From: Deltaproteobacteria bacterium
GTDB lineage: Bacteria > Myxococcota > Myxococcia > SLRQ01
Assembly (NCBI GenBank): GCA_029210625.1
Contig: JARGFU010000002.1
Coordinates: 1 to 64,000 of the forward strand
DNA: 64,000 nucleotides
Direction: 5' to 3'
Below the pieces are notes generated by a model, which worked only from the letters and a program-made list of their open reading frames with translations, searched no databases and had not been told where the DNA came from. The position numbers and the translations under genes are program-made. Below are positions 1 to 31,977 of this stretch, one piece after another; positions within the stretch are counted from its first letter, which is position 1; each line of letters starts with the position of its first letter.

Positions 1-72
1 GTACACGCCGCCGTCAAGCGCCGGTATCGGTCATCGGGAGGATGCGGGTCGATTCTCCGGTGACGCGCCGCG

Positions 73-3000
73 TCAGTCGACCCAGGTGGCCAGGAAGAGG
101 TTCGTATCCCCCTCGTTCTTGCCGTTCCGGTTGGAGGAGAAGACCAGCTGCTTGCCGTCGGGGCTGAACATCGGGAAGGCCTCGAAGACCGGGGAGTGGG
201 TGATCCGCTCGAGGGTGGCCTCGGGATCGTCCGCCTCGGAGTCGATCATGAAGATGTCGAAGTTGCGGTGCCCGGAAGAGCCGAGGTTGGAGGAGAAGAG
301 GACCCGCCGGTTGTCCGGCAGGAAGTAGGGGGCGAAGTTCGCCGCGCCGTTGTCGGTGATCTGCCGGGCCTCGCTGCCGTCGGCGTTCCCCACGTAGATC
401 TCCATCCGGGAGGGGCGCACCAGGTTCTTCCTCAGGAGGATCTGGTAGTCGATCAGCGCGTCGCCCTCGGGGCGGGAGGCCCGCCAGACCAGCTTCGAGC
501 AGTCGGGGCTGAAGAAGGCGCCGCCGTCGTAGCCGGGCTCGGAGGTCAGCCGCGTCGGCGCCTGCTCCGGGTGCTTCGGGTCCATCAGGTAGAGGTCGAG
601 GTCGCCGTCGCGGGTCGAGGTGAAGACCATCCGGCCGTCCGCGAAGCAGACCGTGGCCTCGGCGTCGTAGCCGGGGCTCTTCGTGAGGTTCACGGGCTTG
701 CCCCGCTTCCCCTGCAGGTAGATCTCGTAGCCCGGGTAGATGGCCCAGACGTAGCCCTGGCTGTGGTCGGGCTCGGGGGGGCACTCCTTGCCGGCCTCGT
801 GGGTGGAGGCGTAGACGATCTCCTTGCCCTCGGGGAAGGTGTAGTAGGCGCAGGTGGTGCGGCCCTTGCCGCTGGAGACCTGCTTCACCTTCCCCTTCTC
901 GAGATCGTAGGTGTAGATGCGGTCGCACTTCACCTTGCCGCCCCGGGCCTGGAAGACGAGGGACTTCCCGTCGGGGGCCCAGTAGGCCTCGGCGTTCTCG
1001 CCCTCGAAGGTCAGCTGCTTCACGTCCTTCAGGTGCCGCTCCTCTCCCGGGTAGAGGAGGGTGACCGGATCCATCTTCGCGTCGTCGGCGATCTCGGCCA
1101 CGGCCTGGCCGGAGGCCCCCTTCGTCTTGCGGACGTAGTGCGAGGTGTGGTCCTCCTCCTCCGCCTCCTCCTCGTCGTCGGCTGCCTCGCTCTCCTCTTC
1201 CTTCGCGGCGGCGCCGTGCCCGCCCCCGTGCTTGCCGCCGCCCTTCTTCTCCGAGCGGTCGCCGAGGGTGGCGGCGAGGGTGAGCTCCTCCTCACCGCGC
1301 TTCACGATCACCTCGATGACGTCCCCCGGCTTGTGATCGCGCAGGACGAAGGTCATGTCGTAGAGGTTGTCGACGCCCCGGCCGCCCATCGAGACGATCA
1401 CGTCGCCGCCCTTCAGGCCGGCCGTCTTCGCCGGGCCCGAGGGGTTCACCCCGGAGATCTTCACGCCGCCGGCGGCGCCGGGGCTCATGGCGGTGTAGTC
1501 GGGGATGGTGCCGAGCCAGGCGCCGAAGCCCCGGCTGTCGCCGGAGAAGGTCGGGCCGCTGGTGCTCTCGCGGTAGGCGATCCGGGTCTCGGCGGTCGCG
1601 GCCTTCAGGGCCACGCCGGCCACGGTGACCATCACCTTCTCGGCGCCGTCGTAGTCGATCTTCGGCTCGTCGTCGGAGGGGGAGTGGTAGTCCTCGTGGG
1701 CGCCGGTGAAGAAGTGCAGCACCGGCACGCCGTTGGCGTAGAAGGGGGTCTGGTCGCTGGGGCCGTAGCCGTCGCCCTGGGTCTGCAGCTTCACCTCCGC
1801 GAGCGTCGCGGCCTCCTGGGTCCAGCCGTCGATGGAGGTGCCGCTCTCGGTGCCGAGGACGACGAGGGTGTCGTCCTTCATGCGGCCGATCATGTCGAGG
1901 TTGAGCATGAGGTTGGTGGCCGAGAGCTTCTCCACCGGCGCCTCGACGTAGTGGGAGGAGCCGGCCAGCCCCACCTCCTCGCCGTTGAAGGCGGCGAAGA
2001 CGAAGCTGCGGTGGCTCTCGGCCCCGGCCAGGGCCTCGGAGGCCCGCAGGCGGCGGGCCAGGATGGGCAGGGCCGCGGCGCCCGAGGCGTTGTCGTCGGC
2101 CCCGTTGTGGATGGCCCGCTCGCCGGGGCTCATGGTGCCCGACTGGCCGTAGCCGAGGTGGTCGAAGTGCGCGCCGATGACGACGGTCTCCTCCGCCAGG
2201 GCGCCCTTGCCCGGCAGGCGGCCCAGCACGTTGCAGAGGTTGCGCTGCTCGCGCTCGAGGACGACCTGCCCCTTCACCTTGCCCAGGCTCTTGGGGCTGC
2301 TCTTGAAGGTCTCGTCGATGGCCTTCACCTCCGAGAGCAGGTCGGTGCCGGCGGCGGTGAGCCAGACGTCGGCCACGGCGGGCAGGAGGTGGAGCACCGG
2401 CAGGCCGGCGGAGCTCTGGGCCTCGGTGGGGGAGAGGCGGGCGACCTTGCGGTCGGGCTCCTCGCCCTCCTCCGGCGGGGTGACGAAGATGACCGCCTTC
2501 GCGCCCCGGCCCTTCGCCTCGAAGACCTTCCGGCGCAGCTCGGAGTGCCGGCTGGGGCGGTCACCGTTGAGCGGGCTCTCGGGGTCCTTCTCCCGCGGCT
2601 CGAAGCGCAGCATCAGCAGGACCTTGCCGGCGGCGTCGAAGCCCTCGTAGTCGCTGTAGCCCTCGTCCGGGGCGTGGATGCCGTAGCCGACGAAGTAGAG
2701 CTCGCCCTCGAAGGGCGCCGAGACCGAGAAGGGCGCCGTGCCCAGCTTGCTCGTGGCCACCCCCTCGCCCTCGCGGGAGAGCTCGAGGGTCTCGACCTTC
2801 GTCTCGACCGGGTGGTCGAAGCACTGCATCCAGCCGCCCTCGGCGCCGGCCGGCTCGAGGCCGGAGTCGGCGAAGGTGCGGGCCAGCAGCTCCGCGGCCT
2901 TCTTGTTGCCCTCGGTGCGCACGCCCCGTCCCTCGAGGGCGTCCGAGGCCAGGGCCCGCAAGATCTCCCGGTACTCCTCGACGGTGGAGGGGCGGATCGG

Positions 3001-3108
3001 GCGCGGGGGCGGCTTCAGCGCGGCGCAGGCCCCGGCCCCGAGGAGGAGGGCCGGCGCGGCGAGGAGGAGGGCGGCGACGAGGGCGAGCACGGAAGAGGTC
3101 GGCTTCAT
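73..3108 (-). CDS. M28-family zinc aminopeptidase fused to PDZ domain and PD40/TolB-type propeller
   Basis: Predicted secreted metallopeptidase of 1011 residues. A hydrophobic signal segment (1-29) ends at LLLGAGAC, so it may be a lipoprotein, though the lipobox is imperfect. A PA-like insert spans about 135-250. The M28 metal ligands appear in order: HFDHLG (H314, D316), GADDNASG (about D338), NGEEVG (E377/E378), LDMIGR (D405) and EDYHSPSD (H475). A PDZ domain follows at about 530-615. A Lys/His/Gly then Asp/Glu-rich linker (620-655) leads to a C-terminal propeller with blades such as FSPDGKQLVFSSNR. The ATG at 3108 is chosen because it starts the signal peptide; the frame is open further upstream without one. 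It is divergent from the gene at 3230. The family assignment is firm; the substrate is unknown. Bases 1-72, downstream of its stop, hold nothing recognised. Confidence 0.9.
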   Translation of the reverse strand: MKPTSSVLALVAALLLAAPALLLGAGACAALKPPPRPIRPSTVEEYREILRALASDALEGRGVRTEGNKKAAELLARTFADSGLEPAGAEGGWMQCFDHPVETKVETLELSREGEGVATSKLGTAPFSVSAPFEGELYFVGYGIHAPDEGYSDYEGFDAAGKVLLMLRFEPREKDPESPLNGDRPSRHSELRRKVFEAKGRGAKAVIFVTPPEEGEEPDRKVARLSPTEAQSSAGLPVLHLLPAVADVWLTAAGTDLLSEVKAIDETFKSSPKSLGKVKGQVVLEREQRNLCNVLGRLPGKGALAEETVVIGAHFDHLGYGQSGTMSPGERAIHNGADDNASGAAALPILARRLRASEALAGAESHRSFVFAAFNGEEVGLAGSSHYVEAPVEKLSATNLMLNLDMIGRMKDDTLVVLGTESGTSIDGWTQEAATLAEVKLQTQGDGYGPSDQTPFYANGVPVLHFFTGAHEDYHSPSDDEPKIDYDGAEKVMVTVAGVALKAATAETRIAYRESTSGPTFSGDSRGFGAWLGTIPDYTAMSPGAAGGVKISGVNPSGPAKTAGLKGGDVIVSMGGRGVDNLYDMTFVLRDHKPGDVIEVIVKRGEEELTLAATLGDRSEKKGGGKHGGGHGAAAKEEESEAADDEEEAEEEDHTSHYVRKTKGASGQAVAEIADDAKMDPVTLLYPGEERHLKDVKQLTFEGENAEAYWAPDGKSLVFQARGGKVKCDRIYTYDLEKGKVKQVSSGKGRTTCAYYTFPEGKEIVYASTHEAGKECPPEPDHSQGYVWAIYPGYEIYLQGKRGKPVNLTKSPGYDAEATVCFADGRMVFTSTRDGDLDLYLMDPKHPEQAPTRLTSEPGYDGGAFFSPDCSKLVWRASRPEGDALIDYQILLRKNLVRPSRMEIYVGNADGSEARQITDNGAANFAPYFLPDNRRVLFSSNLGSSGHRNFDIFMIDSEADDPEATLERITHSPVFEAFPMFSPDGKQLVFSSNRNGKNEGDTNLFLATWVD

Positions 3109-3229
3109 GGGGCGCAAAATTCCCTGCTTCGGCGCCGGTTTCAAGGGCGCGCGGATGTCGCTCGCCCCGGCCGGGCGCCTTGGGGTAGTAGAGGAGGGGG
3201 GACCGCACCGGTCGCCGGGAGGAGAGGAC

Positions 3230-4117
3230 ATGCCGAATCTGCAGCTCGAGCCCAAGCAGAATCTCTCGTCGTTCCGAAAGATCGCCCTGGGGACCTGGAA
3301 GACGGCCTACGACCCCAGCGTCTACGGCAGCATGGATCTCGATGTCACCGAGACCATGGAGTACATCGAGCAGTTCCGGGCGAAGACCGGGCGCAAGCTG
3401 ACGGTCACCCACCTCCTGGCCCGCACCGCCGGGGCCGTGATGGAGGAGATGCCCGACGCCAACTCGATCCTGCGCTGGGGCCGCCTCTACGTGCGCAAGC
3501 AGGTCGGCGTCTTCTTCCAGGTCGCGATGGAGGATCCGGAGACCGGCGAGATCGATCTCTCGGGCGCCACGGTCCACGACCCCGAGAAGATGAGCATCGT
3601 CGAGCTGATGGACGCCTTCGACTCGCAGGTGAAGAAGGTGCGCAAGGGCGAGGACGAGAAGCTCGAGTCCTCCCGCAACCTCTTCAGGAGCCTGCCCTGG
3701 TTCCTGGTCTGGCCGATCCTCAACCTCATCGGCTTCCTCGGCTACACCCTCAACCTCGACCTGCGCTTGCTCGGCGTGCCCAAGGACGCCTTCGGCTCGC
3801 TGATGATCACCAACATCGGCTCCCTGGGGCTCTCCGAGGCCTACGTGCCCCTGGTCCCCTACAGCCGCATCCCCCTGCTGCTGGCGGTGGGTGAGGTGAA
3901 GGACCGGGCGGTGGTGGTCGATGGCGAGATCGCGATCCGGAAGATCATGCGGATCTCGGCCACCTTCGATCACCGGGTCCTCGACGGGATGCACGCCTCC
4001 GTGATGGCCCGGGTGATGCGCCAGTGGATGGAGCACCCCTTCGAGCACTTCGATCCGATCGACGACCTGAGCGCCGAGCCCGCTCAGCTCGAGGCGGCCG
4101 AGGGCGAGGGCGCCTGA
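3230..4117 (+). CDS. Stand-alone 2-oxoacid dehydrogenase E2-type acyltransferase domain protein
   Basis: A 295-residue protein consisting only of the CAT-like trimeric acyltransferase fold found at the C terminus of lipoate acyltransferases. The active-site signature FDHRVLDG (H248, D252) is intact. No lipoyl domain, E3-binding domain or linker is present, so it is not a normal complex subunit. A strongly hydrophobic stretch (about 158-182, within FLVWPILNLIGFLGY) is unusual for E2 cores and could contact a membrane. The ATG at 3230 follows a good GGAGAGG ribosome site; the upstream in-frame extension is dismissed. It ends only 10 bp before the CARF-HEPN gene, so the two are probably cotranscribed. 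The acyl substrate is unknown. Confidence 0.85.
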   Translation: MPNLQLEPKQNLSSFRKIALGTWKTAYDPSVYGSMDLDVTETMEYIEQFRAKTGRKLTVTHLLARTAGAVMEEMPDANSILRWGRLYVRKQVGVFFQVAMEDPETGEIDLSGATVHDPEKMSIVELMDAFDSQVKKVRKGEDEKLESSRNLFRSLPWFLVWPILNLIGFLGYTLNLDLRLLGVPKDAFGSLMITNIGSLGLSEAYVPLVPYSRIPLLLAVGEVKDRAVVVDGEIAIRKIMRISATFDHRVLDGMHASVMARVMRQWMEHPFEHFDPIDDLSAEPAQLEAAEGEGA

Positions 4118-4127
4118 AGAGAGCGCG

Positions 4128-5459
4128 GTGAAGGGCGTCCCCGAGAGCGCGCTCCTCGCGGCCCGGACCCTGGCCGCGCAGGGTGAGGCGGCCCCGGGCC
4201 GGCCCCGGGGCCCCCGCGCGCTGGTCTGCGTCGTGGGGACCGAGCTCTGGCCGGCCCTCGGGGTGGCGGCCTGGGTGGCGCCCGAGCAGATCCTCCTCTT
4301 GCGCCTGGCCCGCCCGCCCGGGGACGACGGCGCCCCCAACCTGATGGAGGCCCTGGCCCGGGTCTGCGAGATCTCCTTCGATCGGATCGAGCAGCAGTGG
4401 CTCGAGGGCGAGGCCGAGGCGGCCCTCTACGGAGAGGTCCGGGACTTCCTCTCCCGCGGCAAGCTCGATCCGGCCCGGGTGGTGGTGGACGTGAGCGGGG
4501 CCGATCCCCTGGGGCGGGCGGCCGGCGCGCTGGTGGCCGAGGCCGCCGGGGCCCGGCTGGCGCTGCTCTCCGGGGCAGAGGGCGAGGAGCAGGTGCGGCT
4601 CCTGGCGAGCCCGACCCGGGCCTCCGGCACCGACGCGCTGGCGCGGGTGCGCGAGGCCTTCGACGGCGGCCGCTACGCCGACGCCGAGGTCCGGGCCCGG
4701 GAGCTGGCCGGGCAGCTCTACGAGCCGCGGGAGGCCGAGGCCCTGGCCAGCCTGGCCGCGGGCTACGGCGCCTGGCACCGCTTCGACTTCGAGGCCGCCG
4801 AGGCGCCGCTGGCCGACTTCCTCGAGCTGACCCGGAAGCACGAGGGGCAGGGGGGCTGGGCCTGGGCCGCCGAGCTCCGCGAGCGGGTGGGGGAGAACCT
4901 CGAGGCCCTGCGCGAGCTGCGCCGGGTGCCCGAGCGCCCCGCGCGGCTCGAGGAGGGGCTGCCGGCGATCCTGAACCACCTCGCCGCGACCCACCGGGCC
5001 ATGACCCAGGTCGATCTCGACGACGCCCTGCTCCTGCTCCACGGCGCGGTCGAGCGCTGGGTCGATCTCGTCCTGCGCTGCGAGCACGCGCTCGATCCGG
5101 ACGACCACGCGGTGATCCCGCTCCCCGATCCCGAGGTCGAGGCCCGCTTCCACGCGCTGGGGGAGCAGCTCTTCGAGGGCTACCGGCCCCTGCCGGCCCA
5201 GGGGCCGCTCCTCTTCCGCCGGGCGGTGCAGCTGCTCGGCGCCCTCGACGCCGATCGCATCACCCCGGGAGACCTGGGCTGGCTGCAGGGCCTGGGGCAC
5301 ATGCGCAACGCGCTGGCCCACGCCCTGGTGCCCACCCACCCGACGGCGAAGCTGCTGCAGCCCAAGCTCGGGCGGGTCGAGGCCTGGTTCGAGGGGCAGC
5401 TGGGGGAGGGCGCGCTCTCGCGGCGGCTGCGGCGCTTCACCTTCCCGCCGCTGGGCTAG
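4128..5459 (+). CDS. Orphan CARF-HEPN protein (Cas02710/Csm6-like), putative nucleotide-activated RNase
   Basis: A 443-residue protein with the architecture of the TIGR02710/Cas02710 group. The N-terminal CARF-like Rossmann region (about 30-160) starts ALVCVVGTELWP and carries VVVDVSGADPLGRAAG at 118-133, the position where CARF proteins have a D-[IV]-[TS]-G-G-T-K ligand loop; here GGTK has become GADP. A helical middle region (165-280) leads to a C-terminal HEPN-like domain (about 285-430) with the catalytic-type RX4H motif R393-NALA-H398 in GHMRNALAHAL. Known family members bind cyclic oligoadenylate through CARF and cleave RNA through HEPN. No CRISPR array or cas gene lies in the window, so the ligand source is unknown. 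It starts with GTG, 10 bp after the acyltransferase gene. Family call by eye; activity is inference. Confidence 0.72.
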   Translation: MKGVPESALLAARTLAAQGEAAPGRPRGPRALVCVVGTELWPALGVAAWVAPEQILLLRLARPPGDDGAPNLMEALARVCEISFDRIEQQWLEGEAEAALYGEVRDFLSRGKLDPARVVVDVSGADPLGRAAGALVAEAAGARLALLSGAEGEEQVRLLASPTRASGTDALARVREAFDGGRYADAEVRARELAGQLYEPREAEALASLAAGYGAWHRFDFEAAEAPLADFLELTRKHEGQGGWAWAAELRERVGENLEALRELRRVPERPARLEEGLPAILNHLAATHRAMTQVDLDDALLLLHGAVERWVDLVLRCEHALDPDDHAVIPLPDPEVEARFHALGEQLFEGYRPLPAQGPLLFRRAVQLLGALDADRITPGDLGWLQGLGHMRNALAHALVPTHPTAKLLQPKLGRVEAWFEGQLGEGALSRRLRRFTFPPLG

Positions 5460-5578
5460 CCACCAGGGGGCTTTCCGTCAGGTCCCGGGTGGGATGCCGC
5501 GCTGCGCCACGCTGGAATGACGCGGTGCTCCGTGATACCCGATCCGGTCACCACGAACCCCCTTCCAGGAGACATTCC

Positions 5579-7426
5579 ATGCCCGAGTTCTCTGCCGACG
5601 TCCGTGACCTGAAGTTCGTGCTCTTCGAGCAGGGTGGCTTCGAGAAGCTCCTCGAGACCCCGAAGTACGCCGAGCTCGATCGGGAGACCGCCGAGGCCAT
5701 GCTCGACGAGGCCTACAAGTTCGCGAGGGAGCAGCTCGCTCCGCTCAACGGCCCCGCCGACAAGAACGGCGCGACCTACGACAAGGCCACCAGCAAGGTG
5801 ACGCTCCCCGAGGGCTTCAAGCCCGCCTACGAGCTCTTCAGCCAGAACGGCTGGCTCTCCATGGCGCACTCCGCCGAGTGGGGCGGCATGGGCATGCCCT
5901 ACTCCCTGGGCCTGGCCTGCAACGACTTCTTCTTCGGCGCCTGCCTCTCCTTCTGCCTCAACGCCCTCCTCGGTGTGGGCAGCGCCCACCTCATCGAGGT
6001 CTTCGGCAGCGACGAGCTGAAGAAGACCTACCTCGAGAAGATGTACTCCGGAGAGTGGGCCGGCACGATGTGCCTCACCGAGTCCCAGGCCGGCACCGAC
6101 GTCGGCGCCCTGCGCACCAAGGCGAAGAGGGACGGCGACCACTACCTCATCGAGGGTGAGAAGATCTTCATCACCTTCGGCGACCACGACCTCACCGACA
6201 ATATCGTCCACGCCGTGCTGGCCCGCATCGAGGGCGCCCCCGAGGGCACCAAGGGCATCTCGCTCTTCGCCGTGCCGAAGTACCGGGTGAACGCCGACGG
6301 CAGCATCGGTGAGCCCAACGACGTGCGCTGCTCCGGCATCGAGCACAAGATGGGCATCCACGGCTCGCCCACCTGCACCATGGTCTTCGGCGAGAACGAG
6401 GCCTGCCACGGCTACCTCCTCGGCGAGGAGAACAAGGGCATGCGGGCCATGTTCCAGATGATGAACGAGGCCCGGATCTCGGTCGGCCTGCAGGGCGCCT
6501 CGGGCGCCAACGCCGCCTTCCGCTACGCCCTCGACTACGCCAAGGAGCGGGTGCAGAGCCCCGACCTGATGAAGGGCAAGGACTCCAGGCCCACCACCAT
6601 CATCCACCACCCCGACGTCCGCCGGATGCTCTCCTGGCAGAAGGCCATCTCCGAGGGTCTCCGGGCCCTGCTGGTGCGCACGGCCATCTGGGAGGACCTC
6701 TCCCACGCCGCCGAGGACGAGGCCGAGCGGGCCAAGTACGAGGGGCTGGTCGCCCTGCTCACCCCGGTGTGCAAGGCCTACGCCTCCGACATGGGCTTCC
6801 GCTCCATCGAGATGGCGGTCCAGACCCTGGGCGGCTACGGCTACACCTCGGAGTACCCGGTGGAGCAGTACCTGCGCGACACCAAGATCGCCTCGATCTA
6901 CGAGGGGACCAACGGCGTGCAGGCCCTCGACCTGGTCGGCCGCAAGCTGGGCCTCAACGGCGGCCAGGCGGTGCAGGACCTCTCGGCCATCGTGATGGGC
7001 ACCATCGGCGCCACCGCCGAGAACCCCGAGCTGGCCGGCGCCTCGAAGGCCCTGGGCGGCGCGCTGCAGGATCTGGGCGGCGTGACGATGAAGTTCGCCC
7101 AGGAGGGCCGCGAGAACCCGATGCTGCCGGTGCTGAACGCCGCCCCCTACCTCGACCTCTTCGGCCTGGTGGTGCTCGGCTGGCTGCTCCTCGAGCAGGC
7201 CTCCCTGGCCCTGCCGAAGCTGGAGGCGATCGCCAAGGCCAAGGGCGTGGATCTCTCCGACGCCAAGGCCCGCGCGGGCCTGTGCAAGGACGATCCCGAG
7301 GCGGCCTACTACGAGGGCAAGATCCAGACCGCGAACTTCTACGCGGCGCGCGAGCTGCCCCTGGCGCGCGGCAAGGCGAAGGCCATCTCGGCGGACGACG
7401 TCACGCCGATGACCATGCCCTTCTGA
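5579..7426 (+). CDS. Acyl-CoA dehydrogenase, long form with C-terminal extension
   Basis: A 615-residue FAD enzyme expected to catalyse alpha,beta-dehydrogenation of an acyl-CoA in the cytoplasm, passing electrons to ETF. Visible features are the ACAD middle-domain signature [19 protein letters not shown], the FAD/substrate region [11 protein letters not shown], and the C-terminal helical signature with [17 protein letters not shown] and [19 protein letters not shown]. The glutamate of YEGTNG is the usual catalytic base position in this group. About 130 extra residues after the core match the C-terminal domain of the roughly 600-residue subfamily. ATG 5579 is preceded by AGGAGA. The 119-bp gap upstream shows no convincing promoter. 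No ETF or other beta-oxidation genes are adjacent. Confidence 0.93.
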
Positions 7427-7429
7427 CTA

Positions 7430-7470
7430 GTGGGGGGAGCGTCAGCTCCCCCCACACCCCCCAGCTCGGG
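7430..7470. terminator. G-rich 11-bp hairpin plus CCCCCCAGCTCGGG tail, recurrent intergenic element (copy 1)
   Basis: Perfect 11-bp stem GTGGGGGGAGC (7430-7440) / GCTCCCCCCAC (7445-7455) with loop GTCA, four bases after the acyl-CoA dehydrogenase stop. It is followed by CCCCCCAGCTCGGG (7457-7470). The same hairpin type and identical 14-mer tail recur at 54517-54556. There is no U-tract, so termination is inferred from position. Confidence 0.6.
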
Positions 7471-7488
7471 CCAGGGGTACACGGCTCC

Positions 7489-7575
7489 GCGACCCGCATC
7501 CGGCTAGGCGCCGGCTGCGGGTCGCTTCGGTTTCGGGGTGCCCGGTTGCGGGTCTCGCACCGGGCGAGATTCGGT
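7489..7575. repeat. Structured intergenic DNA: two strong consecutive inverted repeats
   Basis: Two consecutive stems lie in the 422-bp gap between the acyl-CoA dehydrogenase and DUF502 genes. The first pairs GCGACCCGCATCCGGC with its near-complement around loop TAGGC (16 pairs, one mismatch). The second pairs GCCCGGTTGCG with CGCACCGGGC with one bulge. This could be a repeat-element tip or a structured RNA on either strand. Apart from this, the hairpin at 7430 and the minus-strand ORF from 7742, nothing is seen in 7427-7848. Confidence 0.5.
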
Positions 7576-7848
7576 CCCCGCAAGAGGCCGTAGCGAAGCG
7601 GGACCTCCATGGAGACCAGCGGCACGGAATGGACTGAACATTCCGCCGGGAACTCGAACCTGTCCGTGAAGTCCTTTGCGCACGCCACGCCCGCCAGGCT
7701 CAGCGCGAGGACCAGAATTGCAGTGATGGAGAGGCTCTTCATTGGCTCGGCGTTGTTGCCGGCCACCGTGAGGTGCCTCCGCGACCCTGAAGGCCAGGGA
7801 CACGGATCGGCACTCGACTCCTCGAGCGCCCTCAGCCTTCCGCGAACC

Positions 7849-8496
7849 TCAGTGCACCTGCCGCGGCCACTTGGGAACGACCACCCCGAGGGAGACGATC
7901 ATCCGGAAGGCCTCGTCCACGCTCATCTCCAGCTCCACCACGTCGTCCGCCGGGACCATGAGGATGAAGCCCGAGGTCGGGTTCGGCGTCGTGGGCAGGA
8001 AGACCGCCACCACCTCCGACTCGGTCTTCTCCTGCACCTCCCCCAGCCGCGAGCCGGTGAGGAAGGCGATGGCCCGCGAGTCCCGGTGCGGCCAGCGGAT
8101 CAGCACGACCTTGCGGAACGACTTGCTGTCCGGCGCCAGCACCGTCTCGGCCAGCTGCTTGCTGCCCCGGTAGAGGCTGCCGACGAAGGGGATCCGGCCC
8201 AGGAGCGCCTCGCCGGCGGCGACCAGCCGGTGGCCGAAGAAGTGGGTGACGGCCAGGCCCGTGAGGAAGAGCAGGACCAGGGCCAGGAGGATGCCCAGGC
8301 CCGGGATCTCGAAGCCGAGCAGCTCCGAGGGGCGGATGGCCTTCGGCACCAGCACGAGGAGCTTGTCCACCAGCTGGACCAGGAAGCGCAGCACGAAGAA
8401 GGTGATCATCACCGGCACCCAGATCAAGAGACCGGTGATCAGGTACTTGCGGACGAAGTGTCTCGGCGGCGTGCGTTCTGGCTCCACGGCCCCCAT
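7849..8496 (-). CDS. DUF502 family inner-membrane protein
   Basis: A 215-residue protein of the DUF502 family, function unknown. It has two membrane segments (about 17-42, beginning [20 protein letters not shown], and about 64-88) followed by a soluble domain. Family hallmarks include the GxxIWxP-like first helix, [18 protein letters not shown] after the second helix, and the C-terminal [17 protein letters not shown] block. The ATG at 8496 gives a normal family length; the frame extends far upstream but antisense to rimK. It is divergent from rimK with an 84-bp shared spacer. Its role is unknown beyond membrane location. Confidence 0.85.
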
Positions 8497-8580
8497 CCTA
8501 GGCCCGCCGGCGCCCGGCACCCACCCATCCTTTTCGCTGCCCTCTCCTTTCTCCGTGTCGATCCCGAGCCCCTTTGGGGT

Positions 8581-9525
8581 ATGCCTGCACCCGCACCCCA
8601 GCTTCGAAAGCGAGCCCAGCAGTTGAAGATCGGCATCCTCTCCCGCAAGCCCTCCCTCTACTCGACGCGGCGCCTCAAGGAGGCCGCCCGCGCGCGGGGC
8701 CACAGCGTCACGGTCGTCGACTACTCGCGCTGCTACATGAACATCACCTCCCACCGCCCGGCGGTGCTCTTCAAGGGCAAGGCGCTCTCCTTCGACGCCA
8801 TCATCCCGCGCATCGGCTCCTCGATGACCTTCTACGGGACGGCGGTCGTGCGGCAGTTCGAGATGATGAACATCTTCTCGGCCAACGAGTCCCAGGCCAT
8901 CGCCCGCTCCCGGGACAAGCTGCGGGCCCTCCAGCTCCTCTCGGCCGAGGGGATCGGCCTGCCGGTGACCGGCTTCGCCCGCTCGACCCAGGACGTGGAT
9001 GGGATCATCGACGTGGTGGGCGGCGCCCCCCTGATCGTGAAGCTCATCGAGGGCACCCAGGGCGTCGGCGTGGTCCTGGCCGAGACCTACAAGGCGGCCG
9101 AGTCGGTGATCAGCGCGTTTCGCCAGCTCGACGCGAACATCCTGGTGCAGGAGTTCATCAAGGAGGCCGGCGGCTCGGACATCCGGGCCTTCGTGGTGGA
9201 CGGCAAGGTGGTCGCCGCGATGAAGCGGCAGGGGCCCCCGGGCGAGTTCCGCTCGAACCTCCACCGCGGCGGCAGCGCCGAGAAGATCCGGCTCACCCCC
9301 GAGGAGCGCAGCACCGCGGTGCGCTCGGCGAAGATCCTCGGGCTGCGGGTGGCCGGCGTCGACATGCTGCGCTCGAACCACGGTCCGGTCGTGATGGAGG
9401 TGAACTCCTCGCCGGGCCTCGAGGGCATCGAGGCCGCCTCCGGCAAGGACGTGGCCGACAAGATCATCGCTTTCCTGGAGAAGAACGCCCACACCGGGCG
9501 GCGGAAGGACCGTGTCAAAGGCTGA
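8581..9525 (+). CDS. rimK: RimK-type ATP-grasp alpha-L-glutamate ligase
   Basis: ATP-grasp ligase of 314 residues resembling RimK, which adds glutamate residues to the C terminus of ribosomal protein S6. RimK hallmarks are the N-terminal [18 protein letters not shown], the YMNITS segment, [11 protein letters not shown], the ATP-grasp loop [33 protein letters not shown], and the metal-binding [17 protein letters not shown] 8581 is used; a TTG at 8623 would begin exactly where E. coli RimK begins, so the true start is uncertain by 14 codons. It overlaps the next gene by 14 bp, indicating one operon with the M14 and retropepsin-like genes. Confidence 0.93.
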
Positions 9526-10480
9526 ACGACGCCCCTCGTTCCGGCTCGGAGAGCACGAGGTGCGAGCCGGGAAGCGAGCTCACCTCGAGCTCCCGGTCGC
9601 CCGGCTGCCCTCGGGCAACTGGATGAACCTGCCCCTGGTGGTGCTGCACGGGCGGCGCCCGGGGCCCACCCTCTGGCTGTCCGGCGCCATCCACGGTGAA
9701 GAGCTCAACGGCGTGGGCATCATCCACGACCTGCTCCCGCGCCTCGACGCGCGCGAGCTCTCGGGGACGCTCCTGGCCGCCCCGATCGTGAACGGCTTCG
9801 GGGTGATGGAGGGCTCGCGCTACCTGCCCGACCGCCGGGACCTCAACCGCTCCTTCCCGGGCTCGAACCGCGGCTCGCTGGCCTCGCGCCTGGCGCACCT
9901 CTTCTTCCAGCAGGTGGTCATCCGCGGCGACCTCGGCATCGATCTGCACACCGGCGCCGCCGGCCGCGAGAACCACCCGCAGCTGCGCTGCGACCTCGAC
10001 CACCCCGAGACCCACGCCTACGCCGAGGCCTTCAGCGCACCGCTCACGCTCCACTCGGACCTGCGGGACGGCTCCCTGCGCGCCGCCGCCTGCGAGCGGG
10101 ACATCCCGGTGCTCCTCTTCGAGGTCGGCGGCGCCCTGCGCTTCTCGCCCTCGGGCATCCGCGAGGGGGTGAACGGCATCCTCCGGGTGATGGAGAAGGC
10201 GGGGATGATCGAGGGCCCGGCGCCCCCGCCCAGCGGGCCGGCCCTCTTCTCGCGGCGCAGCCGCTGGATCCGGGCCCGCCGCAGCGGCTTCTGCTACCTG
10301 CGCGCCGATCTCGGCGAGCGGGTCACCCAGGGTCAGGTGCTGGCGGTGATCGGCGACGGCATCGGCAAGGACGAGACGCGGGTGCGCGCCCGCTCACCGG
10401 GCCTGGTCATCGCGGTGGACCGCTCGGCCCAGGTCTACCAGGGCGACGCCCTGGTCCACGTGGCGGAGCTCGAGGCGTGA
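9512..10480 (+). CDS. Succinylglutamate desuccinylase/aspartoacylase-like zinc hydrolase (M14 superfamily)
   Basis: A 322-residue zinc-dependent hydrolase of the AstE/AspA branch of the M14 carboxypeptidase fold. Zinc-site motifs are [10 protein letters not shown] (H and E ligands) and DLHTGAAG (third His); [12 protein letters not shown] is the substrate-binding block. The C-terminal 80 residues form a lipoyl/biotinyl-like beta domain with [26 protein letters not shown]. It starts at GTG 9512 inside the end of rimK and ends overlapping GTGA with the next gene. Placed between a glutamate ligase and a RimB-like protease, it probably acts on glutamylated or N-acylated substrates; that role is inferred. 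Confidence 0.88.
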
Positions 10481-10932
10481 AGAGGAAGCTCCGCCCCCCG
10501 AAGGTCCTCATCGGCTGGCGGGAGTGGGTCGAGCTGCCCTCCCTCGGCATCGAGCGGATCAAGGCCAAGATCGACACCGGCGCGCGCACCTCGGCGCTCC
10601 ACGCGGACGTCGTGCGGACCTACCACCGGGCGGGCCGCTGCTTCGTCACCTTCCGGGTCCACCCGACCCAGCGCTCGCTCTCGCCCGAGCTCGAGGTCCA
10701 CGCCGAGATGATCGACGAGCGGCAGGTCCGCTCCTCCAGCGGGAAGGCCGAGCTGCGGCCGGTGATCCTCACCACGCTGCAGCTGGGCGAGGAGCGCTGG
10801 CCGATCGAGATCACCCTGACCCGCCGCGACCTCATGGGCTTCCGGATGCTGCTGGGGCGCCAGGCCCTGCGCCGCCGGGTGCGGATCGATCCGGGGCGCT
10901 CCTTCCTCCTGGGGCGTCAGTCCCGGACGTAG
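10477..10932 (+). CDS. RimB-like retropepsin-type aspartic protease (DUF785 / ATP-dependent zinc protease family)
   Basis: A 151-residue protein with the retropepsin-like active-site motif [12 protein letters not shown] and the family ending [15 protein letters not shown]. The family is annotated as ATP-dependent zinc protease, but the fold and DTGA motif are those of a dimeric aspartyl protease. In Pseudomonas, RimB is encoded with RimK and affects RpsF glutamylation. The start GTG overlaps the previous stop (GTGA), confirming the three-gene operon. Its 3' end overlaps convergent msrA by 16 bp. Confidence 0.88.
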
Positions 10933-11516
10933 TGGCAGGTGTAGCCGCTCGGGTTCTTCTCCAGGTAGTCCTGGTGGTAGCTCTCGGCGGGCCAGAAGGG
11001 GCCGGCCGGCACCACCTGGGTGACGATCGGGTTCTTCCAGCGGCCCGACTTCCCGGCGCGCTCGAGGGCGGCCCGGGCCTCGGCCACCTGCTTCTCGCCC
11101 ACGGTGAAGATGGCCGAGCGGTACTGGGTGCCCCGGTCGTTGCCCTGGCGGTTCGGGGTGGTCGGGTCGTGGATCCGGAAGAAGAAGTCGAGGAGCTCTC
11201 CGTAGCTCACCTTCTTCGGATCGAAGACGATCCTCACGGATTCGGCGTGGCCGCTGTCGCCGCCCTTCACGTCGGAGTAGGTCGCGTTCGCGAGGTCTCC
11301 GCCGGTGTAGCCGACCTCGGTGTCGATCACCCCGGGCAGCTCGCGGATCAGGTCCTCCATCCCCCAGAAGCAGCCGCCGGCCAGGTAGGCGACCTCCTGG
11401 CCCTTCGCCGCCGGCTTCGGCGCGGGAGTGGGGGCGTCGCCGGCGCGGGCCGAGGCGACGAGGGCGGCGGTGCCCAGGAGGAGGGCGGCGAGGAGGAGGG
11501 GACGCAGGTGCTTCAT
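10917..11516 (-). CDS. msrA: Peptide-methionine (S)-S-oxide reductase MsrA, exported form
   Basis: MsrA of 199 residues that reduces the S-epimer of methionine sulfoxide in proteins. The catalytic motif GGCFWG lies at about 47-52; the family blocks [27 protein letters not shown] and [11 protein letters not shown] are present. An N-terminal signal peptide (about 1-26, cleavage near ASARA) and a Pro/Ala-rich spacer point to a periplasmic enzyme. The C-terminal tail contains one more Cys ([10 protein letters not shown]) that could recycle the active-site Cys. It is a single gene convergent with the RimB-like gene. Confidence 0.95.
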
Positions 11517-11608
11517 GGCGGGGCTTCCTTTCGATCGCTACTTCGCTCCGCGACGAGAGGAGGTTACGCCCGCCCCGCGAGCGGGCCAGCCGGAGCCCCG
11601 GGCGGCCT

Positions 11609-13633
11609 TCAGTAGACGTCGGTGGCGAGCAGGGCGGCGAGGCCCGCGGCCTTCTCGCCCGGCGCGAGGGGAAGCTCCGCCAGGAAGGCGGCGTCCTCCG
11701 CCTCGGGCACCGCCGCCAGCAGCGCCGCGGCGGGCCCCTCGGGCGCCGGGGGGCCCCGCTCGGCCCGGTCCCGCACCCAGAGCTCGGCCAGCTCCTCCAG
11801 CAGGGGATCGACCGCGAGGCCCTCCTCCAGCCGGTGGCGCAGGGTCGCCGCGGCCGCGCGTCCCTGGTGGAGGATCACGACCGGGACCGGGTGGGCCTCG
11901 CGCAGCCCGGAGAGCGCCTCGAGGGCGGCGGCCGCCCGCTCGAGCTCGCCCAGGCGCAGGGCGGCCTCGACGATGCGGGAGTGGATCACGGCGGCCGGCC
12001 AGGGGCCCCGGGCCCGGGCGTCGAGGAGGCGCTCGGCCCGCTCCAGCGCTGGCGCCAGGTCCTCCCCCGAGAGGAGCGCCAGGCGCAGCCGCTCGTGGGC
12101 CAGGTAGAGGGCGTTGCTCCCCTGCCAGCCCTCGCTCATGCCGGAGGCGCCGTCGTTGGCGGCCTCGGCCCGCTCGAGGGCGGCGCGGGCCTCCTCGTGG
12201 CGCCCCAGCCGGGCGAGGGCAGCGAGGGTGTAGCAGTGGGAGATGTTCGCCTCCCAGGGGGCCGCCTCCTCGAAGGCGGCGAGGGCGTCGGCGAGGTGGA
12301 GCAGGGCGGCGTCGTCATCCCCCGTGTGCGCGGCGATGCGCCCCCGGGTGGAGAGGATCCGCGCGGCCTCCAGCGCGTCGCCCGCCTGCCGGGCCGCCCC
12401 GAGGGCCGCGTCGGCGTAGCGCCAGGCCTCCTCGCCGCGGCCCAGCTCGATGAGCAGGCTCGCCAGCGCGTTGAGGAGGCGGGCGGTCACGGCGTGCTTC
12501 GGGCGGTTGGCGCCGCCCTCCTCCTCGAGGAGCCACTGCAGGTGGGTGGCGGCCTCCATGGCGCCCTTGCGATCGCCGGCGTAGGCCCGGTACCGGCAGA
12601 GCAGCACCTGGGTCTCGGTGTGGGCCTGCACCAGCGCCCAGGGCGGCTCCTCGGCCCAGCCCGCCGCTGCCACCAGGTGGCCGTAGGCGTCCTGCAGGGC
12701 CTCCAGGCGCCCGAGCAGCACGGGGGGCGGGACCGAGCGGGTGCGATCGAGCCAGGCCGCCTCGTGGGCGGCGTCCAGCCAGCTGCTCACGCTGGGCGGG
12801 CGGGGCGCCGCGGCGTCCTCGAGCCCGAAGAGGGAGAGGAGCTCCGCGAGGGTCTCGACCGGCACCAGCTCCGGGCCCTCCCCGGCGAAGGCCTCCGGCC
12901 CGAGGCCCGCGGGCACGACGAGACGCTCGACGCAGGGGCGCTCTCGCCGCAGGGCCTCGCGCTTGGCCGCGACGCTGCGCTCGCGGTTGCCACCCAGGCG
13001 CAGCCGCCCCTGGGCGTCGAGGTGGCCGGTGACCGCGATGTCCTGGGGCAGCGGCCGCTCGCTCCAGCAGGAGAGGAGCATCAGCAGGAGGGCGGCGCCC
13101 ATCGAGCTGCCCTCCACCCGCTCCAGGGCGTCGAGGCCGGGGTCGAGGCAGACCAGGCGGTGCCAGCCGCGCAGGGGCTCCAGGGGCGGCGCGCCCAGGG
13201 CGCGGGCGGCCTGCGCGTAGGCCTCGCCCGCCGTGTCGCGGGCGACCTCGTCGATCTCGACGGCGGGCCAGAAGGAGGCGAAGGGGCGGTCGCCCTCCTC
13301 GCGGGAGAGGAGGCCCAGCCGGATCACCGCCCCGAGGTGATCGTGGGAGGAGAGCCAGTAGGTGGCGCCGAGGAGCGGCTCCGGCCGCCGGAAGGCCCGG
13401 GAGGGCAGGGGAAGCTCGGTGTCGCCCACCTCCCGGAAGCGCGCCTGCAGGGCCTCGGCCTCGGCCTCCTCGAGGGAGCCCGGGGGCAGGAGGCGGGCGA
13501 GGTTCCAGGCCCGCTGGCGCAGGGGGCCGCGGCGCGGATCGCCGGCCTCACCCTCCCGGGCGAGCTCCTCCAGGCGCGCGAGGGCCCTCCGCAGGGCGTG
13601 GACGGGACGCAGGGCGTCGGCAGGCGTGATCAC
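11609..13633 (-). CDS. Lon-type (S16) proteolytic-domain protein with TPR-like C-terminal half
   Basis: A 674-residue protein, third gene of the sigma-factor operon. Residues about 165-270 match the Lon peptidase domain: EGSSMGAAL (S177 at the catalytic serine position, DGPSAG in Lon), VTGHLDAQGRLRLGGNRERSVAA (Lon: MTGEITLRG...GGLKEKLLAA), then VERLVVPAG. The second lysine of KEK, the catalytic base in Lon, is R219 here. There is no AAA+ domain. The C-terminal half (about 320-660) is helical, with TPR-like repeats. GTG 13633 overlaps the upstream stop (GTGA). It could be a protease, a pseudo-protease, or a scaffold; the family is not otherwise known to me. Confidence 0.7.
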   Translation of the reverse strand: MITPADALRPVHALRRALARLEELAREGEAGDPRRGPLRQRAWNLARLLPPGSLEEAEAEALQARFREVGDTELPLPSRAFRRPEPLLGATYWLSSHDHLGAVIRLGLLSREEGDRPFASFWPAVEIDEVARDTAGEAYAQAARALGAPPLEPLRGWHRLVCLDPGLDALERVEGSSMGAALLLMLLSCWSERPLPQDIAVTGHLDAQGRLRLGGNRERSVAAKREALRRERPCVERLVVPAGLGPEAFAGEGPELVPVETLAELLSLFGLEDAAAPRPPSVSSWLDAAHEAAWLDRTRSVPPPVLLGRLEALQDAYGHLVAAAGWAEEPPWALVQAHTETQVLLCRYRAYAGDRKGAMEAATHLQWLLEEEGGANRPKHAVTARLLNALASLLIELGRGEEAWRYADAALGAARQAGDALEAARILSTRGRIAAHTGDDDAALLHLADALAAFEEAAPWEANISHCYTLAALARLGRHEEARAALERAEAANDGASGMSEGWQGSNALYLAHERLRLALLSGEDLAPALERAERLLDARARGPWPAAVIHSRIVEAALRLGELERAAAALEALSGLREAHPVPVVILHQGRAAAATLRHRLEEGLAVDPLLEELAELWVRDRAERGPPAPEGPAAALLAAVPEAEDAAFLAELPLAPGEKAAGLAALLATDVY

Positions 13634-14649
13634 TCCTGCGGATCGTCCCCGGCCAGGGGCGTGATGGCAAGGGCCTCCCTGCGCGGCTCGCCCCCCTCGG
13701 GGTCGGCCAGGGAGACTCGCAGGGCGCGCGACCCGGCGCCCGCGCCGGCCAGGGGCACCCACCAGGCCAGGGCCAGGGGGGAGCGGTGGGGCAGGCCGGG
13801 GGCCTGGGGCTCGAGGCGGACCTCGAGGATGGCGTCGAAGTCGCCCCCGGCGTGGCGCACCACCAGGCCGGGCGGCGTCTCGTCGTCGTGCTCGGCCAGG
13901 CCGTGGGTGTGCACCAGCACCTCGCCGTCGAAGAGGGAGGCCACCGGGGCGCCCAGGGGGCGAGCGAGGATGGCCTCGGGCTCGGAGGCGGCCTCACCGC
14001 CGAACTGCAGCGAGGAGAGCTGCTCCAGGGCCCGGGGGGAGAGGCCCAGGGCCTGCAGGGCCGAGCCCACCAGGGGGCGGGTGAGGAAGCGCTCGATCTC
14101 CTCGCGGTGCTCCCCGGCGAGGAGGAGGTTGGCCCACCAGGCGCCGGGCGTGTGCCGGGCGATGGCCAGCAGCCAGGCGGGGACCTCCGGGTCGTGGCGC
14201 AGGGCCGCGGCCATCCGGTCGCGGCGGGCCGAGGCGCGGCCGTCGAGGGCATGGCAGCGGCGCAGGAGCTCGCGCTCCAGGCCCTCCCGGCCGGTCAGCC
14301 CGAGGGCCCAGGAGAGGCTCTCGAGATCGTCGCGCCGGGCGAGCACGGCCACCACGCCCGCGGGATCGTTGCCGCCGTCGAGGGCCACCAGGCCCGCCTC
14401 CAGGCCGTCCGAGAGGGCGTCGACCTTGGCCCGCAGGGCGGCCTCGGCGTGGGTCAGGTCCAGGGCACGCAGGCCGGCCTCGAGGGACTTGCGGGCGCCC
14501 CCCGGGAGGTGGCCGCCCCGCAGGAGGCGCCCGGCGGCGATCAGGGCCGCCGGGGGCTGCTCGTCCGGGGCGCGCAGCGCGTCCAGGGAGGGGCCATCGA
14601 GCCACTCGGGCAGGAGGGCCGGGTCTTCGATCCAGGGTGTCGAGGCCAT
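13630..14649 (-). CDS. Unknown protein of the sigma / Lon-TPR operon
   Basis: A 339-residue protein that I do not recognise. About 1-215 is predicted to be helical and repeat-like, with segments such as SLEAGLRALDL and AAALRHDPEVPAWLLAIARH. About 235-339 looks beta-rich (GEVLVHTHGL, GLVVRHAGGDFDAILEVRLE, LALAWWVPLAG). There is no signal peptide or membrane segment, so it is probably cytoplasmic. It sits between the sigma-factor gene (56-bp gap) and the Lon/TPR gene (4-bp overlap), so it is likely a partner, adaptor or anti-sigma-like regulator of that operon; this is inference from position only. Confidence 0.75.
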   Translation of the reverse strand: MASTPWIEDPALLPEWLDGPSLDALRAPDEQPPAALIAAGRLLRGGHLPGGARKSLEAGLRALDLTHAEAALRAKVDALSDGLEAGLVALDGGNDPAGVVAVLARRDDLESLSWALGLTGREGLERELLRRCHALDGRASARRDRMAAALRHDPEVPAWLLAIARHTPGAWWANLLLAGEHREEIERFLTRPLVGSALQALGLSPRALEQLSSLQFGGEAASEPEAILARPLGAPVASLFDGEVLVHTHGLAEHDDETPPGLVVRHAGGDFDAILEVRLEPQAPGLPHRSPLALAWWVPLAGAGAGSRALRVSLADPEGGEPRREALAITPLAGDDPQE

Positions 14650-14705
14650 CGTCACGATCTCCAGGAGCGCGGTCGAAAAGAGGGCAGGCCTTCGCCTGCC
14701 TTGGG

Positions 14706-15434
14706 TCAGGAATCGCCCTCCCGACGACCCGCAGGCGCCTCTTCTGACGCCTCGTCGCAGCCCAGCAGGCGGGTCATCAGATCGACCTCCACGACGCCGA
14801 TCTCGCCGGTCTCGTGGAGCGCCGCGATGGCCGCGCAGGCCGCCACCTTGCCCCGGCGGCGGTACTGGTAGACCCGGTCCCGGGCCCGCCGGCGGTCGGT
14901 GGCGCTCGCCTCGCCGCCGGGATCGGCCCAGCGGGCGATCTGCGGCTCGATCTCCTCTCCGAGGAGGTGGGCCTCGAGGTGGATCCGGACGTTGTCCTGG
15001 ACACGCTCGAGGTCGCGGGCCCGGTGCAGCCGGGAGAGGCTGCCCAGGAGCATCCCGAAGAGGTGCTCGAGGTCGGCGGCGAAGACCGGATCGTCGTCCG
15101 CCGGCGCCTTCACCGCCGGGGCGTCGTCGAGGTTCACCTTGTTCTTGCGCGAGCGGAAGTAGTCGATGGCGTAGCGCTGCAGGATCCGGTTGCACCAGGC
15201 GCGGGCCGCCCGGTCGTCCTCCCCCCGGAAGCGGCTCCGCCCGAGGGACGCCTCCAGCACCACCTTGTGGATGGCCTCCTCGACGATGACCTGGGGCAGG
15301 TGGGGGAAGCGCCGGCGGAGGGTCCCGCCCCCGAAGCGCTGCACCATCGCGTAGAGCGCGGCGGCCGCCGCGTCGCGCTCGCGGCGCGGCAGCTCGTCGT
15401 CGGCGAGGGTTCGCAGGAGCTCCCAGAGGGCCAT
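14706..15434 (-). CDS. ECF-like sigma-70 family RNA polymerase sigma factor
   Basis: A 242-residue protein. Sigma region 2 is recognisable at about 45-110: FPHLPQVIVEEAIHKVVLEA (region 2.1/2.2-like, where ECFs have a D-x-V-Q-E-x-F block) and ARAWCNRILQRYAIDYFRSRK (region 2.3/2.4). The C-terminal part (about 175-225) has the basic sequence RRRARDRVYQYRRRGKVAA, which may be a diverged region 4. It heads the operon with the unknown and Lon/TPR genes. A TAGAAT hexamer at 15448-15443 lies only 8 bp before the ATG, which would give an almost leaderless transcript. It is divergent from the ABC-transporter operon. Target promoters are unknown. Confidence 0.75.
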   Translation of the reverse strand: MALWELLRTLADDELPRRERDAAAAALYAMVQRFGGGTLRRRFPHLPQVIVEEAIHKVVLEASLGRSRFRGEDDRAARAWCNRILQRYAIDYFRSRKNKVNLDDAPAVKAPADDDPVFAADLEHLFGMLLGSLSRLHRARDLERVQDNVRIHLEAHLLGEEIEPQIARWADPGGEASATDRRRARDRVYQYRRRGKVAACAAIAALHETGEIGVVEVDLMTRLLGCDEASEEAPAGRREGDS

Positions 15435-15442
15435 GGCGGGCC

Positions 15443-15448
15443 ATTCTA
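15443..15448 (-). promoter_or_regulatory. Candidate -10 element of the sigma / Lon-TPR operon
   Basis: TAGAAT on the minus strand, 8 bp before the sigma-factor ATG. No consensus -35 is seen at 16-18 bp. If used, transcription would begin within 1-2 nt of the start codon. This is one weak hexamer in a high-GC spacer, so confidence is low. Confidence 0.3.
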
Positions 15449-15558
15449 TGCCAGGGAAGGCCCCGGGTAGCCACCACGGCCATTGACGGCCCCCGGTGTC
15501 AGACCCACAGTGACCCCCCGTCGCTGGGGCCCCCGTTGCGAGGCCAGGAGGAGACACC

Positions 15559-16314
15559 ATGGAAGCCATCGTTCGGCTCGAGGGAGTCGAGAAGGACTAC
15601 GAGCTCGGCAAGACCATCGTCCCCGCGCTGCGCGAGATCGATCTCGAGATCGCCCGGGGCGAGTTCACGACCATCGCCGGACCCTCGGGCAGCGGGAAGA
15701 CCACCCTGCTGAACCTCGTGGGCTGCGTGGACGTGGCCACCCGGGGCGAGGTGCACGTGGACGGCCACGAGACCCACAACCTCTCGGACCGGGCCCTGAC
15801 CACCCTGCGGCTGAACACCCTCGGCTTCATCTTCCAGTCCTTCAACCTGGTGCCGGTGCTCTCGGTCTTCCAGAACGTCGAGCTGCCCCTCCTCCTCGGC
15901 GGGAGGCTCTCGAAGAAGGAGCGCAAGGAGCGGGTCGAGGAGATCATGGAGCGGGTGGGGCTGGCCGATCAGCTCCGGAAGCGCCCCAACGAGCTCTCCG
16001 GCGGGCAGCGCCAGCGGGTCGCCATCGGGCGGGCCCTCGTCGGGCGGCCGAAGATCGTCCTGGCCGACGAGCCCACCGCCAACCTCGACTCGAAGACCGG
16101 CGCCAACATCATCGACCTGATGCGGGAGCTCAACCAGCAGGACCACACCACCTTCATCTTCTCCACCCACGACCCGCGGGTCTGGGAGCACGCCCGCCGG
16201 ATCATCAAGCTGGAGGACGGCCGGATCGTCGCGGACGAGCCGGGGGCGGCGAGCGGTGAGCTGCCGCCCCCGCCCGCGGGCGAGGAGGCCTCCACCGGGG
16301 CGAGCGCGTCATGA
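15559..16314 (+). CDS. LolD/MacB-type ABC transporter ATPase
   Basis: A 251-residue ATP-binding subunit. Walker A GPSGSGKTT, Q-loop FIFQSFNLVPVLSVFQNVELPL, signature LSGGQRQRVAIGRAL, Walker B IVLADEPTANLD and H-loop STHDPRV are all intact. The FQSFNLVP wording and length are typical of LolD/MacB ATPases that drive mechanotransmission rather than transmembrane passage. A 30-residue Pro/Ala/Glu tail follows the core. ATG 15559 has a strong AGGAGGAGA site. The stop overlaps the next gene (ATGA), so it is the first gene of the five-gene export operon. Confidence 0.95.
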   Translation: MEAIVRLEGVEKDYELGKTIVPALREIDLEIARGEFTTIAGPSGSGKTTLLNLVGCVDVATRGEVHVDGHETHNLSDRALTTLRLNTLGFIFQSFNLVPVLSVFQNVELPLLLGGRLSKKERKERVEEIMERVGLADQLRKRPNELSGGQRQRVAIGRALVGRPKIVLADEPTANLDSKTGANIIDLMRELNQQDHTTFIFSTHDPRVWEHARRIIKLEDGRIVADEPGAASGELPPPPAGEEASTGASAS

Positions 16315-31912: not shown

Positions 31913-31977
31913 ACTGCCCACTCCGGTGGGGAAGTTACCGATTGACGCTGCCTGACCCCCGCCTAGGGTGGGGTGGG

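Follow-up and report, generated by a model that had tools for sequence, protein, structure and literature searches.

The gene and its neighbourhood

The window analyzed here is a whole stretch of 64,000 nucleotides, positions 1 to 64,000 of the forward strand of contig JARGFU010000002.1 (Deltaproteobacteria bacterium, assembly GCA_029210625.1), and close to its start lies a gene for a protein in which a CARF, a 6H and a HEPN domain follow one another. CARF-HEPN RNases are known to be controlled by cyclic oligoadenylate (cOA) made by Cas10. The gene, the parts of its product and the two flanking genes are located as follows:

3230..4117, + strand: stand-alone catalytic domain of a 2-oxoacid dehydrogenase acyltransferase (E2-type; Pfam PF00198, 5.3e-25)
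4128..5459, + strand: CARF-6H-HEPN protein gene, 443 aa, opening with GTG; the coordinates take in the TAG stop
4209..4613, + strand: Rossmann-type CARF domain spanning residues about 28-162 (strands alternate with helices across E31-E159 of the AlphaFold model; Foldseek CARF matches)
4488..4517, + strand: former cOA-binding motif II, residues 121-130, DVSGADPLGR, with P127 in place of lysine
4563..4589, + strand: site of the missing CARF mobile loop, residues 146-154, LLSGAEGEE (from alignment with homologues and Thermus thermophilus Csm6, TtCsm6)
4614..4943, + strand: 6H linker domain, residues about 163-272, with GYGAWHRFDF (all-helical in the model; Pfam Csm6_6H below cutoff)
4944..5456, + strand: HEPN domain, residues about 273-443 (all-helical in the model; the Foldseek alignment to TtCsm6 spans it)
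5304..5321, + strand: HEPN catalytic motif R393-N394-A-L-A-H398 (R-X4-H), aligned with homologues and TtCsm6
5579..7426, + strand: acyl-CoA dehydrogenase, downstream neighbour (Pfam PF00441, PF02770, PF02771, PF12806)

The GTG start codon of the CARF-HEPN gene lies 10 bp past the stop codon of the acyltransferase gene, and the frame is intact over 443 codons, with no stops or frameshifts and a coding-like GC content at the three codon positions (0.845/0.50/0.973). The two motifs named in the original prediction, D121-V-S-G-A-D-P-L-G-R130 and R393-N-A-L-A-H398, read exactly as given there. The coupling to an acyltransferase that it also named comes down to the 10-bp adjacency, which was not seen beside the homologues of that gene (45-48%) in four members of the class: in the stretches read, nothing next to them matched a CARF protein or an acyl-CoA dehydrogenase. 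The acyltransferase operon was rejected as a functional clue because the adjacency is not conserved in these genomes. Throughout the class there are homologues of the acyltransferase at 39-48%, and many genomes have two; the window copy has no lipoyl domain and carries a hydrophobic insert in mid-protein (LPWFLVWPILNLIGFLGYTLNL).

The direct neighbours are these two metabolic genes, and no minimal nucleotidyltransferase adjoins the CARF-HEPN gene as in the HEPN-MNT (HepT-MntA) pairs. A defence island was likewise rejected for the ten window proteins tested, among which PADLOC matched a LolE-like transporter and, in a sigma-54 activator, the AAA part. The latter protein (31942-33417, + strand) matches RtcR_PspF2 at 7.4e-110 from residue 169 onward, its N-terminus gave no CARF match, and it is probably an ordinary enhancer-binding protein. 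Elsewhere in the window, a 717-aa protein (11609-13762, - strand) combines a weak match to the Lon C-terminal protease with TPR repeats, and a 1960-aa ORF (41404-47286, - strand), by eye a Cys/Asp-rich surface protein of metal-binding type, contains a repeat array at 43060-45811 of about 15 copies of 174 bp (58 aa) with 68% matches. The genomic setting of the CARF-HEPN gene thus offers no functional clue.

Domain architecture and relatives in type III-B loci

Twelve PADLOC models matched the window protein, all of them CARF/HEPN or Csx1/Csm6 models, with a Csx1/Csm6 model scoring best (7.7e-14). An AlphaFold2 model built from an input alignment of nine sequences (pLDDT 79, pTM 0.61) revealed a Rossmann-like arrangement of strands and helices in the first 160 residues and helices only thereafter. 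When this model was compared with the PDB by Foldseek, the top eight chains were all TtCsm6 (4.6e-11 to 2.8e-10, 19-20% identity), aligned over the whole length and followed by Csx1, Csm6', Cam1 and other CARF proteins; the CARF domain matched TtCsm6, Cam1, Csa3 and ring nucleases. The Rossmann-plus-helical architecture expected of a CARF-HEPN protein was therefore recovered by profile and structure prediction alike, with TtCsm6 as the best PDB match. The match to TtCsm6 has a TM-score of 0.47 and an rmsd of about 10 Å, which together with the pTM of 0.61 makes the placement of the domains relative to each other unreliable. Pfam Csm6_6H scored 22.4 bits, under its cutoff of 27.6, and the Foldseek match covers this region. 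An alignment profile dominated by homologues rather than by the window protein matched TtCsm6 at 1.2e-18; phmmer of the single window protein against the PDB gave noise only.

The kinship with the Cas02710/Csm6 group that had been proposed holds as a profile similarity to the TIGR02710/Csm6 group, but not as core membership of TIGR02710 (PADLOC Csx1 / CARF1-CARF_HEPN). The window protein shares the domain order of this family, yet its score of 28.7 bits (5.9e-7) falls under the NCBIfam equivalog cutoff of 83.9, it lacks GGTK and it is not CRISPR-linked. It is a divergent, non-core member of the CARF-HEPN superfamily, and core TIGR02710 is more distant from it than are TtCsm6 and a III-B-linked sub-clade.

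Searches with the single protein found it only in its own genome among 195 genomes of the phylum, retrieved no relatives from the genome and viral collections and, by tblastn, nothing from plasmids and phages. A four-row alignment searched against 84,980 species returned eight loci. The best relative, L023, comes from a Desulfobacterales MAG (DTYH01000133.1) and is 31% identical over residues 25-442 (pairwise E 1e-63); a two-row profile added two sub-clade members from the phylum of the window genome, G228 (600 bits) and G341 (507 bits). All three are 30-31% identical to the window protein and are effectors inside Cmr-type (III-B) loci. By domain, identity to the III-B homologues is 27-30% in CARF, 32-36% in 6H and 31-33% in HEPN. 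A maximum-likelihood tree grouped the window protein with these three (support 97/95); with an end branch of 2.0 changes per site, its exact position is subject to long-branch caution. The three relatives share its N-terminal extension and its GYGAW-RFDF 6H signature; unlike it, they have retained DPTGGKKSMS together with the tyrosine, the loop and R-X6-H, and adjoin RAMP, PrimPol and Cas1 genes.

The III-B setting is most complete at the G228 locus, where Cmr1, Cas10/Cmr2, Cmr4, Cmr5 and Cmr6 scored above their NCBIfam cutoffs and Cmr3 below, alongside the CARF-HEPN gene, a CRISPR-associated PrimPol, a ring nuclease and an adjoining frame that reads as Cas1-like. The L023 locus contains Cas1 and, by reading, a fragmented Cas10 and Cmr5-like, Cmr6-like and Cas2-like frames; its Cas10/Cmr2 region (1-2265) is split into several frames, either by real decay or by assembly errors. 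In G341 a RAMP gene lies directly upstream of the CARF-HEPN gene. The window protein descends from III-B-linked CRISPR effectors.

The ligand site and the genome-wide search for a ligand source

The original prediction had noted a ligand loop changed from GGTK to GADP. Comparison of the site in an alignment of 28 homologues (the outlier L013 left out) and TtCsm6 agreed that this loop is altered, but showed that the change is no swap of one loop: the cOA site is gone as a whole. The ligand motif of CARF domains, (D/N)-X-(S/T)-X3-(R/K) (PMC4748810), is broken in D121-V-S123-G-A-D-P127 by a proline at the basic position; in this column, TtCsm6 K137, 27 of the 28 homologues have lysine and one arginine. 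Further near-invariant columns are changed as well, namely (TtCsm6 first) T133 to S123, G135 to A125, K137 to P127, M139 to G129, Y161 to L146 and V162 to L147. The mobile-loop segment is 10-11 residues shorter than in all homologues except L013, and in the first CARF motif E39 occupies a position that is S or T in most relatives. Nine near-invariant CARF columns are kept: G37, P42, P52, D121, G124, L135, G152, E154 and P162. Two variants differ at the same places, L042 (G581) with TGGTR, arginine replacing lysine, and L013 (G071) with TRGTK, a shortened loop and a branch of 3.75; type III genes lie next to the latter.

In TtCsm6 the mutation K137A entirely abolished cA4 binding and all cA4-dependent RNase activity, T59A/S60A abolished the cA4-dependent RNase activity, Y161A and N164A each lost ring-nuclease activity, and combined loop mutations abolished cA4 cleavage (PMC10897365). 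With the lysine, the tyrosine, the glycine and the mobile loop all missing, the cOA-binding site of the window protein is erased; a possible objection is that R130 has taken over the part of the lysine.

Neither Cas10 nor a SMODS nucleotidyltransferase, which could make such a ligand, was recovered from the window genome (6.1 Mb, 64 contigs, 98% complete). RAMP (PF03787), Cas1 (PF01867) and the SMODS nucleotidyltransferase (PF18144), the last expected beside a CBASS-type effector, each gave no match across the genome, and the two matches to the Cas10 palm were rejected as Cas10, both being ordinary GGDEF proteins on reading (L002 with GGEEF, L003 with GEELV). Thus neither the Cas10 nor the RAMP gene that accompany a type III ancillary effector were found in this genome, and CRISPR-like arrays were absent from window positions 1-16000 and from the window's tandem repeats. 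The lack of cas genes first noticed within 64 kb therefore extends, for RAMP, Cas1 and Cas10, to the whole genome, including the search for a true type III Cas10. As a control, 27 of 28 distinct genomes with CARF-HEPN relatives were RAMP-positive. The sole negative one, G365, was rejected as a second orphan, since PrimPol-, Cas1- and Cas6-like genes (assigned by eye against L023/L055) lie on the same contig.

These searches bear on two rival explanations. The first, that cOA still activates the protein as the type III effector of a CRISPR system missed in the assembly, is highly improbable: a locus could sit in a gap between 64 contigs at 98% completeness, but three independent marker families were negative where 27 of 28 relatives' genomes are RAMP-positive, and the ligand lysine, tyrosine and loop are absent. 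The second, raised by the original prediction itself, is that the CARF pocket has been remodelled for a different small ligand, such as another cyclic nucleotide or a dinucleotide, which activates the HEPN RNase. The retained CARF scaffold, including D121, G124 and E154 (the equivalent of TtCsm6 E179), and R130 as a basic residue are consistent with such a sensor. The ligand-closing loop is deleted, however, the catalytic or contact tyrosine is gone, and neither a SMODS synthetase nor Cas10 was found, although, with GGDEF proteins encoded in the genome, c-di-GMP would be a candidate. Another cyclic nucleotide is accordingly less likely than had been suggested, and we consider this reading improbable.

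The HEPN motif and the possible fate of the effector

R393, N394 and H398 align with the invariant R, N and H of the 28 homologues and with R415, N416 and H422 of TtCsm6, all three of which are required in that enzyme (PMC10897365). The HEPN assignment rests on this column alignment rather than on the pattern: R-x4-6-H alone is no evidence because it arises in 92% of shuffled HEPN halves, and RN-x3-5-H arises in 2.75%. The spacing from R to H is X4 in the window protein and X6 in all 28 homologues and TtCsm6, two residues more, so that X4 is unique within the sub-family. In SyCsx1, RxxxxH (X4) is a functional spacing and H388A is dead (PMC9676260). Two near-invariant residues on the HEPN side are also changed, Y to H305 and G to A399. 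TtCsm6 without its CARF domain is as active in vitro as the full-length apo enzyme (PMC4748810); loss of the pocket thus does not necessarily entail loss of activity. With its shorter R-H motif and altered Y305 and G399 columns, the window protein could nevertheless have lost its RNase activity too.

The protein is like TtCsm6 (PDB 5FSH, 8JBB, 8JBC, 8JH1) in its CARF-6H-HEPN order, full-length fold, R/N/H triad and CARF scaffold residues, including the equivalents of D131 and E179. It differs in lacking the equivalents of K137, Y161 and G135, the mobile loop and a CRISPR locus, and in having R-X4-H instead of R-X6-H. A ligand site that is gone, a scaffold and triad that are kept, and no demonstrable source of ligand are most simply accounted for by a III-B-derived Csm6-type effector that was uncoupled from cOA and kept as a standalone RNase, either constitutive or switched by another signal; we give this account about an even chance. 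An ancestral III-B ancillary ribonuclease would have lost, in this lineage, both its CRISPR system and its cOA site. The protein would still dimerise through CARF and HEPN and still cleave single-stranded RNA, without switching by cOA. Against this account stand the occurrence of the gene in one genome, too few for a measure of purifying selection, and the end branch of 2.0.

The main rival is that the protein is a decaying remnant, an ex-CRISPR effector drifting without function after loss of its locus and with a possibly dead RNase. A single occurrence among 195 phylum genomes, the same long end branch, the loss of most ligand residues together with the mobile loop, and the two-residue deletion inside the HEPN motif would all be expected of such a remnant. 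The intact 443-codon frame and the gene-like codon-position GC, 0.973 at third positions, argue against decay, as do the survival of R, N, H and the scaffold residues where most positions have diverged and an identity in HEPN and 6H (31-36%) that equals or exceeds that in CARF (27-30%). With one genome this counter-evidence is not decisive; decay is unlikely in our judgement.

In a genome without type III CRISPR and with an erased pocket, the enzyme would be switched otherwise, or not at all. For a standalone RNase uncoupled from cOA, the CARF half would be a dimerisation scaffold, or would sense something else, either a partner protein or, like the CARF of RtcR, the ends of RNA; otherwise basal activity would be low. 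A slow RNA-decay or stress RNase would be more likely than a fast abortive-infection switch, since the gene is co-directional with metabolic genes and lies outside a defence island. The narrower version, in which the effector was kept after CRISPR loss, its cOA site was dismantled and CARF now relays a protein or RNA signal to a working HEPN RNase, is put forward tentatively.

HEPN RNases generate cyclic-phosphate ends, which counts in favour of the reading that the protein, by analogy with the RtcR CARF, senses a partner protein or the ends of RNA. Signals other than cOA are used by CARF domains outside CRISPR: that of RtcR binds RtcA/RtcB (PMC9650030) and tRNA 5' fragments ending in 2',3'-cyclic phosphate (PMC7790460). 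The likeness to RtcR, a CARF working outside CRISPR without cOA, is one of analogy only, because RtcR is a sigma-54 AAA activator and not a HEPN RNase. The window protein has neither the AAA nor the HTH domain of RtcR, and no conserved neighbour offers itself as a partner; taken by itself, this reading is distinctly improbable.

A full-text literature search, with the main CARF survey outside its scope, returned no CARF-HEPN protein that retains the catalytic triad but has neither the ligand site nor a CRISPR system. The window protein, a single sequence, is more thoroughly altered than the original prediction saw. If dead, it would be an ordinary relic. If active, it would reveal directly whether a CARF domain can persist as a scaffold or be redirected to another signal, and would show how CRISPR effectors behave when freed from their system; should the CARF half indeed relay another signal, it would exemplify, in nature, a CRISPR effector put to new use outside immunity.
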